The translations under genes were made by a program, and so were the position numbers. From Arthrobacter sp. YN (GTDB taxonomy: Bacteria; Actinomycetota; Actinomycetes; Actinomycetales; Micrococcaceae): a stretch of 64,000 bases of DNA. Below are positions 50,960-64,000 of this stretch, one piece after another. How positions within the stretch are numbered: position 1 is the first letter of the stretch; each line of letters opens with the position of its first letter. The notes under the pieces were generated by a model. It searched no databases. It saw nothing but the letters and a program-made list of their open reading frames with translations, and was not told where the DNA came from. The stretch lies in the NCBI RefSeq assembly GCF_002224285.1, contig NZ_CP022436.1, positions 2,356,001 through 2,420,000 on the forward strand, read 5' to 3'.

Positions 50960-53098
50960 CTAGGGCGTTGGTGTGTCCTTGCCGTCAGTTGGTGGATTAG
51001 CCCTGCTTTCCCGCCAACGCAAGATTTCTTCATAAGCAAATCTCATGCGCTGAGCGGGTGACGGGATCTCATCTCCTCGGGCTTGCGCGACCTCTGCTGG
51101 TTCATCCAAAGGCAACTCAATCAACATGTCCGGCGGAATTGTGTTCTCAAGCTTGTCAGTGAACAGGAACAGTTGTGAGGCTGGTGCCTCATAGCTTCCG
51201 GCCTCTTTGGAAGCCATAACGAATGCTGTAGCCAGAGTTGTCAGGCTGAGGGAATCGTCTTTGAGCGCATCAAGCGTGTTGACCTGCAGCTTGGGCAGCC
51301 CATCCATCGCAACGAGGTAGTTCCACACGGCAATTTGTTCGTGGATGGATTCAGCCGAGTCACAGGTCCGCCACTCGTCGATCAACCATTGTGTTGCCTG
51401 ATCAATCCACAGCGGAATCAGCTGGTCTGTCAGAGTTGGGTCGTCAGTAACTGGTGACGACCGTCCTATCGCTTCGAGCTCTGAGAATCCTCTAGCCGAA
51501 GGGGCATTATTGAGATTCAGGCAGTGGCCCAGAGATTCAGGCCGGGGGAATCGTCCGACGAATGCCTTGAGCTCGGGCTCCTCCCATGGGCCGTTGTGAC
51601 TTAGCAGCCGTGCCAGCCAAACCTCTTTGAGGCGGGTGGCAGAATCTCGGAAATCTCGATCCAACGGCTGCTTTGAAAGCCCGTTGCTCAGGTAATCGAT
51701 AAGGGGCCGACCGTCCACATCGTAATCGGTGTCTCTGGCGCCTTTCTTCAGGGCCTTCATCTGCATCTGTTCATTGACGTGGTCGAACGTTTCCGGGCAG
51801 CGGTCTCCGGGGCGCACTACGCCGGTGCGGATACGATTTATGTCCCTAATGACGGTTTCATCTGACATGTCGCCGGTGGGCAAGGAGATTGTGAAGTAGC
51901 GGTCGAAGTACTCGCTGTCGTTGGCTCGGTACTTCCCGCCTGCTGTACTCCACATGTTGTCCGGGAAGGCGTGGGGAAACAATGAAGATAATGCCTCCAT
52001 GAGGTCAACGGGTGTGTCACCGTCGTAACCACAGGATCTGATTCTTTGGAGCCACTCTTCCTCGGATGTGGGCTTGCTGCGGTCATAGCCCTGTTTCCTG
52101 GTTAGCTCACCCGCCCAGGCCGGCAAACGCTCGTAGAGATCTGGATAGAAGATTCGCAGGAACGTGATCGCGAAGAAGTCCGCAGGGTCGACGTTTCCTT
52201 TGGCAAGCTGCAGGAAGGTTATGGCCTGGCCTGCGTAACGGTGGCACGCGCGGGGCGTTGTCAGTGTCGTGGTCATGTGTTCGGTGTAGAAGGATTCGAA
52301 TCTGGACTGCGGTGTCGGCCCTCTATATATTCCGAGTGATGCTTGACGCACTGTCGGACCCAACGCAGAATCCATTATCTCTTGAAGGAAGTGCTGCTGT
52401 GGTTCTGGGAGGTCCAAGGGATACTGCACGATCTTTTCCAAATAGACCTGCGCGGCAACAGGGTCGTTTCCAAGGCCGGAAGCTAGAGCCTTGATCGTTG
52501 ATTTGCGGTCATAGGCAAGCAGGTAGTTGACTCTGGGGAAGCGACCTAAGAGCCGGATGGTCTTCATCAGGACCAAAAGGTCCTTGGGCTGAACGCGGTC
52601 TACATCGTCCACGACGACGAGAACCTTGACGCTTGCTGCTTTGATTGTCTCCGCCATGTCCTTAAAGGCGGAATCCCATGATTTCTCCGGTAGAAATTCC
52701 CGAACGGTTTCCGACGCCCCTGTCCCGACGATTGGGATCGCTTTCAAAGCCGGGGCACTGCGTCGTGCGAGGTCCACGGCCTTCTTGCGGAGGGTTTTAC
52801 GGGATCCACGCGGAAAAGCCTCAAGGATTGCTGAATAGAGTTCGGCCTGTAGCCGCTCCTCATCGAAGGACCAAGGATTGAACTTGGCCACGTGAATGGA
52901 TCGGTCCAGAGCGCTGATGATGAAGTTCAGCACGGACGTCTTACCGGAGCCCCAGGGTCCCACAAGTCCGAAGACGGTGCTGTCGTTGCTGTCGGCCAGG
53001 TTCTCGATGAGGTCTTTCGCCATATCGACGAAAGGGCCGCGGTCCAGCTTGTCCTTGCGGCGGTCCGTCTCTGGCGCATCTACCCATGGTTCAGTCAC
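50960..53098 (-). CDS. KAP-family P-loop NTPase
   Basis: A 712-residue protein starting at GTG. Walker A is GPWGSGKTS (residues 47-55), the family's FNPWSFDEE follows at about 73, and Walker B with the KAP-typical double acidic run is VKVLVVVDDVDRV (about 157-169). A hydrophobic patch (PALKAIPIVG) lies between them where other KAP proteins carry transmembrane helices. The remainder is alpha-helical with no recognised effector. KAP NTPases are STAND/AAA-related and several act in anti-phage defence. It is divergent from a membrane-protein gene of unknown family, 84 bases away. Confidence 0.88.
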   Translation of the reverse strand: MTEPWVDAPETDRRKDKLDRGPFVDMAKDLIENLADSNDSTVFGLVGPWGSGKTSVLNFIISALDRSIHVAKFNPWSFDEERLQAELYSAILEAFPRGSRKTLRKKAVDLARRSAPALKAIPIVGTGASETVREFLPEKSWDSAFKDMAETIKAASVKVLVVVDDVDRVQPKDLLVLMKTIRLLGRFPRVNYLLAYDRKSTIKALASGLGNDPVAAQVYLEKIVQYPLDLPEPQQHFLQEIMDSALGPTVRQASLGIYRGPTPQSRFESFYTEHMTTTLTTPRACHRYAGQAITFLQLAKGNVDPADFFAITFLRIFYPDLYERLPAWAGELTRKQGYDRSKPTSEEEWLQRIRSCGYDGDTPVDLMEALSSLFPHAFPDNMWSTAGGKYRANDSEYFDRYFTISLPTGDMSDETVIRDINRIRTGVVRPGDRCPETFDHVNEQMQMKALKKGARDTDYDVDGRPLIDYLSNGLSKQPLDRDFRDSATRLKEVWLARLLSHNGPWEEPELKAFVGRFPRPESLGHCLNLNNAPSARGFSELEAIGRSSPVTDDPTLTDQLIPLWIDQATQWLIDEWRTCDSAESIHEQIAVWNYLVAMDGLPKLQVNTLDALKDDSLSLTTLATAFVMASKEAGSYEAPASQLFLFTDKLENTIPPDMLIELPLDEPAEVAQARGDEIPSPAQRMRFAYEEILRWRESRANPPTDGKDTPTP

Positions 53099-62076: not shown

Positions 62077-62601
62077 GGTTTCATTCTCTCACGGCGAGAA
62101 AATCGGGCGAGATTTCAGTTCCTGCCACCTCGCTGACCTAGTAGGGCAAGAGTTTCGCTCCATCGAACCCGCCGGCGTTACCGGACCGCCGTCCACACAC
62201 GACGGGATCGCTCAAATTCTGTGCTGGCGGCGAGGTGTGACCCCCAAACTATGGAAGTACGGCCGCCCGGCATCTGTGGCGGCAGTCCCTTCCTGTGGTT
62301 CTGTGAAGTCATGTCGCCTCCTGATCGAACCGCCATGAAGGTGTGAATGGAGGGCATCTGATGAATGTGTCTCGCTCGATGCCGGTCTGCACTTCCGACT
62401 ACCAACATGCACCCGTCGCCGCCGGCGCAGCTTTATGTTCTGCCTCGCTCGAGGACGCCGCCGCGGCGACCACCCCACATGGAAGAGAGAGCGTGGACAA
62501 TGTCCACACTTTCCGCTTCGGACTGTCTCATACACCTACCGGTCTGGCCCGGATTCTGCATGTTTCCGCCACTTCCGAGTGTTTCCAGGCCCTGGAATCC
62601 C

Positions 62602-62623
62602 GTTCGAGTCCCACCTCGGGCAC
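62602..62623 (+). other. Putative attachment site: tRNA-Leu 3'-end fragment
   Basis: The 22 nt begin with the T-loop (GTTCGAGTC), continue with the 3' T-stem CCAC and end with CTCGGGC plus AC, the acceptor 3' strand of tRNA-Leu genes that start GCCCGAG. The 5' T-stem that should pair (GTGGG) is absent; the upstream bases are TCCCG, so no tRNA can fold here. A truncated tRNA 3' end followed by a terminator is the classic distal att site of an element integrated into a tRNA gene. The identity as Leu is from the acceptor sequence only. Confidence 0.6.
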
Positions 62624-62628
62624 GGCAT

Positions 62629-62652
62629 ACCCCCTCGTCAGAGGGGGTTTTT
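62629..62652 (+). terminator. Rho-independent terminator after the tRNA fragment
   Basis: An 8-bp stem (ACCCCCTC / GAGGGGGT) with a GTCA tetraloop, followed by a five-T run. It is placed a few bases after the tRNA-Leu 3' fragment, as for a native tRNA transcript, and supports the idea that the sequence from here rightwards is the original chromosome. Confidence 0.85.
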
Positions 62653-63278
62653 GCTTTAACGTGTGTACAAAGCTTGACATATGCCTCTGCCTCATCATCC
62701 CGGATGGTGCCTGGCCGCCAGGTGCGGCCTGTTTAGTTTGAGTAGGGAAGCGGGGTCAGCGCCCTGGCTGGTGGGCGCTCCGCTGGCTCTGAGCTGGGGT
62801 CATGACGATTCCTCGTTCGGTTCTGTCCGGTAGGTCTGGTGTGGCCTACACCTGTTCATGGGCTGGGGATTTGCTACAACATGACTTGGAGAGATCTCTG
62901 CTTCGTTGGTTTTAGCCGCGGGGTTTTCGTCCCGTCAAGGTGCCGACCACTCGCTTTGTAAGGCCAAAGGGGGCGTGCACATTGTGCACACTTAAGTCTG
63001 TTTTGTTTCTGACCACGGTCTGCTCGCTGCCAAGCCTTCACGTGTTCATTCCGACCGCAGGCTTCAGCGACATGACAAGGCGAAAACCATGTTGCTGTGC
63101 CCGCGTTTGTTCTCCGTCCTGATGAGCATCTGCAATCCTGCGACGAGGGGCAATAGGGCTGTGCTGTCTCGAGTCCGTCGGACTGTCAGGATGAGGTCTA
63201 TGACCTTGGGTGTCTGCCTTCAGACATAGGCGAAAGGCTCTAACCTGACGCCAAAACTCGCCGGTTTTGACATTAGGT

Positions 63279-63337: not shown

Positions 63338-64000
63338 TTATGGTGTGGTGGCTGGTGCTGGCCAGAACTCAGTGACGATGTTCTCCAGCTGAGTTCGGAG
63401 CTCTTCCCAGGGTAGGTTCAGGTTCAGGGTGTTGGCGAGGATCCGGTTGCCGTGGATGGTGACGTCCAAGTCCGGTTGGCTGGGCGCGTCAGTGCGGGCG
63501 TAGAGCAGCCAGCCTCCGACGGTGCCGCCGGTCTTGGCTTCCTCGTTCCGGACGTAGCTGAGGATCTGGTAGAGGTTGGCACTACTGACGGACTCGTTAC
63601 CGAAGCGGCTGACCTGCAGGTTCTTCCCGTAAAACTTGGCGTCCACGATGAGGGTCTTCCCTGCGCCGCGGAGTACCAGGTCCGTCTTCATCTGCGGCAG
63701 GTGGAATGACTTGGGCGAGAAGTCGGGATCGAGGTCCCAGGCGACGGCTGTGGCGGCCGGCTTGAGCTCAGGGTGGTGGACTATGAAGTAGTTACGGAGG
63801 AACCGCTCGTAGAGGTCATGCAGTTTCTCATCACTCAGCCAATCGGCGAGCATGGTGTCTCCGCCGGTCTGGCCCTGAAGCAGGCCGCGGACCACCAATT
63901 CGCAGATGCCCAGCAACAACCGGTAGCCGGAGATGCCGCGGTGGTAGGTCAGGGTGTTCCACCTGATGGAGGCTGGGTCGATGAGGCGCACCTCGGTGAA
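63338..64000 (-). CDS. mcrC: McrC-family restriction component, N-terminus cut by window
   Basis: The frame is open to the right edge; 220 C-terminal residues are seen. The PD-(D/E)xK-type nuclease core of McrC is present: PQMKTDLVLRGAGKTLIVDAK followed by FYGKN, then SSANLYQILSYVRN. McrC partners the AAA+ GTPase McrB to cut methylated DNA; mcrB would be expected just beyond the window on the same strand. The GTG near 63991 is internal, not the start. It lies outside the putative island, on the chromosomal side of the tRNA-Leu fragment. Confidence 0.85.
   Translation of the reverse strand, partial: FTEVRLIDPASIRWNTLTYHRGISGYRLLLGICELVVRGLLQGQTGGDTMLADWLSDEKLHDLYERFLRNYFIVHHPELKPAATAVAWDLDPDFSPKSFHLPQMKTDLVLRGAGKTLIVDAKFYGKNLQVSRFGNESVSSANLYQILSYVRNEEAKTGGTVGGWLLYARTDAPSQPDLDVTIHGNRILANTLNLNLPWEELRTQLENIVTEFWPAPATTP

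Follow-up and report, generated by a model that had tools for sequence, protein, structure and literature searches.

The tRNA-Leu fragment near the right end of our window, the whole 64,000-nucleotide stretch of Arthrobacter sp. YN DNA analysed here, is very probably a chimeric attachment site between two tandem elements. These elements belong to an array that would have arisen by the accretion of an ICE and cis-mobilisable elements (CIMEs) behind a single tRNA gene. What is directly observed is where the attachment sites lie and in which order and orientation, that one tyrosine integrase is present, that element ends are conserved and the flanks beyond them unrelated, and that shorter arrays and a near-empty site exist. 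The window represents positions 2356001-2420000 of the source genome (G000), a single contig of 5,063,552 bp; coordinates beginning 2133627 or higher refer to that contig, and the remainder to the window, whose junction is composed as follows:

1 to 62487, no strand assigned: cargo of the tRNA-proximal segment, whose start at tRNA-Leu(CAA) is 222 kb beyond the left edge
62488 to 62602, plus strand: R-end of the tRNA-proximal element, ~115 bp, conserved in six G000 modules (alignment, HMM)
62602 to 62623, plus strand: attachment core of 22 nt, the 3' end of tRNA-Leu(CAA) (sequence match to the genome's tRNA)
62624 to 62865, plus strand: L-end of the next cassette, ~240 bp (alignment, HMM; the same type follows the intact tRNA elsewhere)
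62630 to 62652, plus strand: terminator-like hairpin and T-run within the L-end (sequence, RNA fold, comparison with other strains)

The core at 62602-62623 consists of a G followed by TTCGAGTCCCACCTCGGGCAC and contains the T-loop, the 3' strand of the T-stem and the 3' acceptor strand. An exact match to this 21-mer is expected by chance only 6.5e-6 times in 5.06 Mb on both strands (at the 61% GC of the fetched region), and one exact copy lies within the intact tRNA-Leu(CAA) at 2133627-2133709; the fragment is therefore genuinely tRNA-derived. In the window itself, ARAGORN detected zero tRNA genes and an Rfam search returned no family reaching its gathering score. Downstream of the core, the hairpin CCCCCTC-gtca-GAGGGGG (62630-62647) is followed by T5 at 62648-62652, and the predicted fold of 62603-62655 has an energy of -25.4 kcal/mol (z -3.25; 2 of 200 shuffles equal or better). 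The sequence thus confirms the original prediction of a tRNA-Leu 3' piece, with T-loop and acceptor 3' strand, followed by a hairpin and T-run.

Allowing up to three mismatches, the 21-mer occurs at nine places in G000, five of them exact. Apart from the fragment and the tRNA-Leu(CAA) gene, five copies (2435038, 2465711, 2470135, 2475739 and 2534174) fall within 116 kb after the fragment, and the remaining two are inside other tRNA genes (Leu-TAA and Arg). A six-copy alignment places each of the non-tRNA copies in a conserved ~370-bp module, composed of an R-end of ~115 bp, a core of 21-22 nt and an L-end of ~240 bp starting with the terminator, with unrelated flanks beyond; four of the six cores are identical to the tRNA 3' end. 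HMM searches additionally recovered L-end-only remnants at 2500792 and 2511068. Core-to-core intervals from the tRNA onward measure 284.9, 16.4, 30.7, 4.4, 5.6 and 58.4 kb, giving an array of at least six joints over ~400 kb behind one tRNA-Leu gene, or 8% of the genome. About 530 kb of G000 lacks shared synteny. From the last module (2534 kb) up to 2665 kb no further one occurs, and this part may have a different history.

This arrangement upholds the reading of the fragment as an attR-type site and revises its place. The fragment had been taken for the distal, chromosomal end of an island, which the further module copies rule out: it is the first of at least six successive joints, with five more copies downstream. 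The terminator had been read as one expected at attR. A chromosomal origin for it is rejected because the L-end, terminator included, directly follows the intact tRNA in other strains (with identical sequence in G061 and G023, and almost identical sequence in G004 and G008), and we assign it to the left end of the next element. When such an element adjoins the tRNA, the hairpin would be expected to terminate the tRNA transcript.

The element lies to the left of the fragment, as predicted, and the suggested search beyond the left edge recovered both a tRNA-Leu ending in the same 22 nt and an adjoining tyrosine integrase, 285 kb from the fragment. The tRNA core ending at 2133709 and the fragment core ending at 2418623 form direct repeats identical over 22 nt (attL/attR), and no further copy of the 21-mer with up to three mismatches lies between them. 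The integrase (Int, 376 aa) begins at 2133795, directly after the intact tRNA-Leu(CAA); its catalytic domain matches PF00589 over the cut-off (66.8 bits), and its central domain falls below. It is the only PF00589 gene of the array: no other match (E 0.001) occurs in G000 from 2134.9 to 3075 kb, so that the five later cassettes have no tyrosine integrase. Serine integrases are unlikely for a tRNA 3'-end core. Following int is a stretch of ~180 bp that is homologous in related strains, lies within an opposite-strand 81-aa ORF in G020, and which we take to be xis-like. Among 15 related int loci compared with G000 (2134.9-2135.3 kb), this stretch is homologous in most strains and occurs in two opposite orientations, one in G000, G016, G022, G014, G020 and G028 and the other in G009, G013, G017, G025, G026 and G035.

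Conjugation genes are located at 2166-2179 kb, 32-46 kb into the segment, and encode TrbL, a TraG-type coupling protein, an ArdC-like protein, SSB and a TrwC relaxase; TrwC, TraG-D_C/T4SS-DNA_transf and TrbL score over the cut-off, and a VirB4-like ATPase only below it. G026 has similar DNA at 1929-1943 kb, about as far from its own int. With an integrase at attL, relaxase, coupling and T4SS genes, and att direct repeats, the tRNA-proximal segment is ICE-like by sequence, and its 285 kb may be composite. The earlier estimate of an island of at least 62 kb is far exceeded: the segment alone spans 285 kb, and further cassettes lie beyond it. Its cargo in the window, sampled by Pfam searches of 10 chosen ORFs, includes ABC solute-binding proteins, a styrene-monooxygenase-A-like protein, an aldehyde dehydrogenase, two proteins with an alpha-L-arabinofuranosidase domain and one GH127 beta-L-arabinofuranosidase, and PADLOC identified a PifA-like NTPase in the ORF at 50960-53098 (residues 16-334 matched).

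To the right of the fragment, at least five cassettes of 4.4 to 58 kb follow, each with a conserved left and right end. The first of them (2418623-2435058) opens within the window with a defence gene:

63338 to 64000, minus strand: McrC-like gene (PF10117 over the cut-off; the ORF runs to 2420435; Pfam and defence searches)

An AAA ATPase gene, presumably McrB-like, is next on the same strand, and the two are the first genes of that cassette. The catabolic and defence genes had been expected to travel together; with McrBC-like genes on another cassette, not all of them travel as one unit. The integrase-free 4.4-kb cassette (2465731-2470155) encodes SdpA and SdpI family proteins over the cut-off and an HTTM-domain protein below it, and is probably an antibacterial Sdp-type peptide system, in which we presume SdpC from its position, the gene having no family match. 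Neither of the two transfer-gene families searched in the later cassettes (PF01580 and PF08751) gave a match there, and by alignment and HMM these cassettes appear to keep their attL and attR sequences.

Extending the survey to other genomes, a search at E 1e-8 recovered the R-end together with the core from 171 of the 206 genus genomes. This is the figure to use, since the module matches found at E 1e-3 in 35 of 36 other same-genus genomes can be reached by a tRNA-only match (as in G017 and G024). R-end or L-end sequence beyond the core also occurs in other genera of the family (e.g. G079, G139, G159 and G212), and named records with the same junction come from Arthrobacter and Paenarthrobacter (30 stretches). 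A search of 22 genomes of other families yielded a single match (E 6.3e-4), as weak as a tRNA-only match, and plasmid and phage collections yielded no module match at E 1e-5. Related integrases (62-65% identical) are carried by secondary, possibly plasmid, contigs (G021 C2, G260 C3, G351 C2 and G389 C2), with no module within the 14 kb fetched around each of these int genes; hence no plasmid attP was found.

The target is a single gene: the 5' part of tRNA-Leu(CAA) is present in one copy in 40 of 41 genus genomes, the one lacking it being 68% complete. The tRNA-Leu genes of G023, G033 and G034 share the same two, apparently compensatory, anticodon-stem changes (two mismatches to the query pattern). 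In the wider regions fetched from 14 genomes, all 98 half-module HMM hits of at least 30 bits, a set that includes the tRNA's own 3' end and from which weaker hits (some of them minus-strand palindrome matches) were dropped, lie on the tRNA strand downstream of its 5' part. Among the matches listed, G341 is the exception to this single-site order, with modules at C1:313933 (+) and C1:1816012 (-), 1.5 Mb apart. Nine of the 14 genomes provided 39 core-to-core intervals, which range from 2.0 to 285 kb with a median of 19.1 kb. Many partial module matches end at the core (query 83-222 and 201-449), though not all (e.g. 87-268).

Synteny holds left of the tRNA, where 13 of 13 other fetched genomes match in the 5-kb tRNA bin (an ANTAR regulator gene), and ends right of the tRNA or of int, beyond which flanks differ almost completely between the species compared. 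A shared right flank is reached at ~2665 kb in G000, 2071-2073 kb in G001 and 892 kb in G002 (three genomes). In G002, a related species, only ~10 kb separate the tRNA from this flank, and no R-end match was found at E 1e-8, with one weak match on another contig. Strains with an empty site had been suggested for comparison, and the site of G002 is almost, and not wholly, empty. Shared blocks that clearly start or stop at the module in both genomes number two among those listed (G001/G026 and G026/G029). Around the tRNA in 34 genomes, int is full-length in 14 and broken in 2; the broken copies known to us are in G021, G026 and G060. G001, G006 and G010 contain modules and two PF00589 genes each, which we take to be probably XerC and XerD.

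The ends of the elements carry short repeats of a common pattern, TGTNNACA. Where int is adjacent, the arms are two direct repeats, TGTN1N2ACA, located 39 and 60 bases after the core and just 5' of int. The window contains three arm-like features:

62492 to 62508, plus strand: R-arm, a near-palindromic pair CGTGGACA-A-TGTCCACA
62662 to 62669, plus strand: L-arm TGTGTACA (N1N2 = GT), 39 bases after the core
62974 to 62990, plus strand: a second arm-like palindromic pair CGTGCACA-T-TGTGCACA, ~355 bp after the core

A similar second palindrome, of the TGTGCACA type, follows the 2470155 module. Across 14 genomes, the pattern is present at the expected place in 36 of 53 L-ends (21 TG and 15 GT), int-bearing and tRNA-adjacent ones included, and in 0 of 53 at a control place; arm types GC and GG were seen at the tRNA of other genomes. 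At R-ends it lies near the R-arm place in 35 of 39, against 0 of 39 at a control 400 bp upstream, as a palindromic pair ~110-130 bases before the end of the core whose halves are strictly complementary in 29 of 39 (19 GG/CC, 7 TG/CA and 3 GC/GC). The arms of a cassette follow neither the resident integrase nor each other: Int of G000 is of the TG type and the six module L-ends read GT, TG, GT, TG, GT and GT, and, across the 39 R-ends, the L- and R-arms of a cassette do not match as they should if a single Int bound both. One Int thus need not serve all cassettes, and the difference between an R palindrome and the L-arm of the same cassette implies either that several integrases built the array over time or that another protein binds the R palindrome.

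Comparison of the integrases with their adjacent arms revealed a covariation. We assembled 65 int loci, most of them top-scoring rather than randomly sampled. Matches occurred in 83 of 206 genus genomes and in 42 of 395 family genomes, and the 30 top-scoring genomes of each set were used (many being common to both); six earlier fetches and 10 of 20 further stretches were added, the other 10 being left out as not next to a core. Sixty-three were parsed, all but G060 and G212, and removal of G237 (misparsed repeat register) and of three genomes with TGTTCCCA repeats left 59, in which the first repeat was scored. Residue 5 tracks N2 in 59 of 59 (R 33/33 and K 2/2 with G; S 12/12 and A 4/4 with T; W 8/8 with C), and residue 19 tracks N1 in 58 of 59 (L in 19, V in 7 and M in 1, all with T; R 26/26 and C 5/6 with G), the sole exception being G365b (C19). 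The second repeat of G408, CGTCGACA, is unlike its first. Outside the 59, G237 (G5 with GTGTACA), G212 (S with GTGTACA) and G060 (R5 and C19 with TGTGGACA; second repeat TGTGAACA) all fit residue 5 by eye. G159, G176 and G471, from other genera, combine TGTTCCCA repeats with V5, Q17 and R19 and break the residue-19 rule; TGTTCCCA repeats with V5 and Q17 may represent a further specificity class outside the two-residue rule.

A predicted structure places both residues in one sheet. It is that of P0001, an Int at 97% identity, with a mean pLDDT of 81 (81-85 in blocks over the first 50 residues); the closest Int cluster, from Paenarthrobacter nicotinovorans, is at 97% identity. Predicted strands at 3-8, 14-22 and 27-33, followed by a helix, form a three-stranded arm-binding-type sheet holding residues 5 and 19. 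Among structural matches, the integrases of Tn1549 and lambda score best, ahead of IntI4. Because side chains alternate along a strand, one face of the sheet should carry residues 5, 17 and 19 and the opposite face W20, which is invariant in a 30-row alignment. Int is accordingly modelled as an arm-binding tyrosine integrase with arm-binding, core-binding and catalytic domains, the first of these assigned by predicted structure.

That residues 5 and 19 touch no base, and that the covariation is pure hitch-hiking of a ~250-bp segment, is a rival reading to which we give a sizeable minority chance. The arms and the N-terminus lie within ~150 bp, close enough for co-transfer by itself to maintain the pairing, and weaker associations exist at positions 6 and 28. 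When each of the 376 positions is scored in 58 of the 59 rows (the broken G021 left out, residues grouped by chemistry), the scan nevertheless ranks residue 5 first for N2, as the sole position with a perfect association (symmetric uncertainty 1.0, against 0.77 for residue 6 in second place), and residue 19 first for N1 (0.78). The pairing of R5 or K5 with N2 = G is found repeatedly in Ints that are otherwise divergent (G450, G512, G399 and G137), and both positions lie in the predicted sheet, which again speaks against hitch-hiking. A quick tree of 61 Int rows, built from residue 46 to the end of the protein and lacking support for 26 of its 57 inner branches, requires no fewer than 16 switches in arm type. 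Independent pairs across well-supported branches agree for residue 5 and N2 in 7 of 7 (p 0.016), and for residue 19 and N1 in an average of 4.7 of 5, which is not significant. One close pair, G026 and G035, has a flank distance of 0.04 and different arm types; its two Ints differ at 20 positions, 10 of which lie in residues 1-40.

Taken together, we offer with somewhat less than even confidence a wider proposal, in which a tRNA-Leu-anchored capture platform extends across the Micrococcaceae. Its arm-binding domain would be a swappable specificity cassette, with residue 19 reading N1 and residue 5 reading N2 of TGTN1N2ACA, that is exchanged with the arms as a ~250-bp segment, and the array would record successive specificities. 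In the favoured accretion reading itself, a lambda-type Int would recombine within the T-loop-to-acceptor core, restoring the tRNA, and would bind the TGTNNACA arm repeats through its N-terminal three-stranded sheet. Incoming elements would stack by inserting into the core of the tRNA or into one left by an earlier element, and the integrase-free, CIME-like cassettes may move in cis with the ICE or in trans. Residues 5 and 19 would read the two variable arm bases, and the N-terminus and arms would be exchanged together between integrases.

It is rather unlikely that the modules are dead remnants, that is, scars of past integration from which nothing moves now, with shared blocks spread by homologous recombination. 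Such decay would suit the L-end-only remnants at 2500792 and 2511068, the broken int of G021, G026 and G060, and the three module-bearing genomes (G001, G006 and G010) that have no tyrosine recombinase besides the two fitting XerC/XerD; it sits poorly with the four of six G000 cores that are still identical to the tRNA 3' end and with flanks that differ almost completely between the species compared. An integron-like platform, in which a resident integrase captures and shuffles passive cassettes and the modules are recombination sites of a managed archive and not a decayed pile of ICEs, strikes us as improbable. It would account for the position of Int directly at tRNA-Leu in 54 of 55 loci listed (mostly best-scoring, not a random draw), for the five later G000 cassettes without tyrosine integrases, for homology to G000 in other strains that ends shortly beyond int and the xis-like stretch, and for the correlation of Int and flank distances in 14 genomes (Mantel r 0.60, with 1 of 5000 permutations as high). 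Against it, the conjugation-like DNA near int in G026 and the ~3 kb after int common to G014, G020, G028 and G022 point to int being part of an element, the arm domain of Int is of the lambda type, and cassette arms do not follow the resident Int. A host chromosomal feature (a terminus or transcription-terminator element) with incidental tRNA-like sequence can be dismissed as highly improbable in spite of the mid-chromosomal position (2.13-2.53 of 5.06 Mb) and strong terminator-like hairpin, given a core that is the exact tRNA 3' end, an integrase adjoining the tRNA, and a scan with three dif-like patterns on the tRNA strand of the fetched regions that returned one poor match, in G012. A dif/Xer site was rejected on that same scan of three patterns on the tRNA strand.

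Arthrobacter is a soil genus known for degrading many compounds, and accretion at one tRNA gene explains where the genus keeps much of its catabolic and defence cargo. With the module, such islands can be divided exactly into their units, and the genes that move together can be predicted. If true, the two-residue rule would make tyrosine integrase arm-site specificity predictable from sequence, as a simple code for lambda-type arm sites: RKR with V/L19 would specify TGTTGACA, STR with R19 TGTGTACA, WER with R19 TGTGCACA, and R5 with C19 or R19 TGTGGACA. Among the best matches in open-licence literature, judged by title and opening abstract, no description of the array or of the arm code was found. 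The array itself is of a known kind, unusually large and widespread; what is new is the arm/Int covariation, the part that a specialist would find surprising.

Integrons combine one integrase with passive cassettes in one orientation, and to our knowledge IntI has no arm-binding domain. The array resembles them in the first respect, and differs in an arm-binding Int that is not IntI, a tRNA target and much larger cassettes. Tycheposons and additive islands, in the part of PMC10872708 consulted, have a tRNA border, a tyrosine recombinase and 4-200 kb of cargo, an additive island repeating the last 20 bp of tRNA-Lys. The tRNA border and tyrosine recombinase recur here, whereas the arm-binding Int, the conjugation genes of the proximal element and the conserved R and L ends set our array apart from what that part describes (PMC10872708). 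Closest in layout are the ssrA islands of Dehalococcoides, 16 with and 15 without an integration module, which according to the portion of PMC3146451 consulted stand in tandem behind one RNA gene with 3'-end repeats and T-loop insertion; there a serine recombinase is used and repeats fall within 100 kb (PMC3146451), while our array is longer and has a tyrosine Int of the arm-binding type and a composite site of 370 bp. Tyrosine recombinases with arm-binding domains share with our Int the order of arm-binding, core-binding and catalytic domains, and the consulted sections of PMC8138268 give no residue-to-arm-base rule, such as the covariation seen here would suggest. Accretion of ICEs, IMEs and CIMEs is established, in the Streptococcus ICESt1 family and others, and the excerpt of PMC5704250 consulted describes the same principle, in which elements that lack an integrase and keep attL and attR accumulate beside an ICE or IME at one gene's 3' end. 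In the array reported here, at least five putatively mobile cassettes extend over 400 kb, the R-end reaches 171 of 206 genus genomes, and arm variants appear to have been exchanged together with the Int N-terminus.
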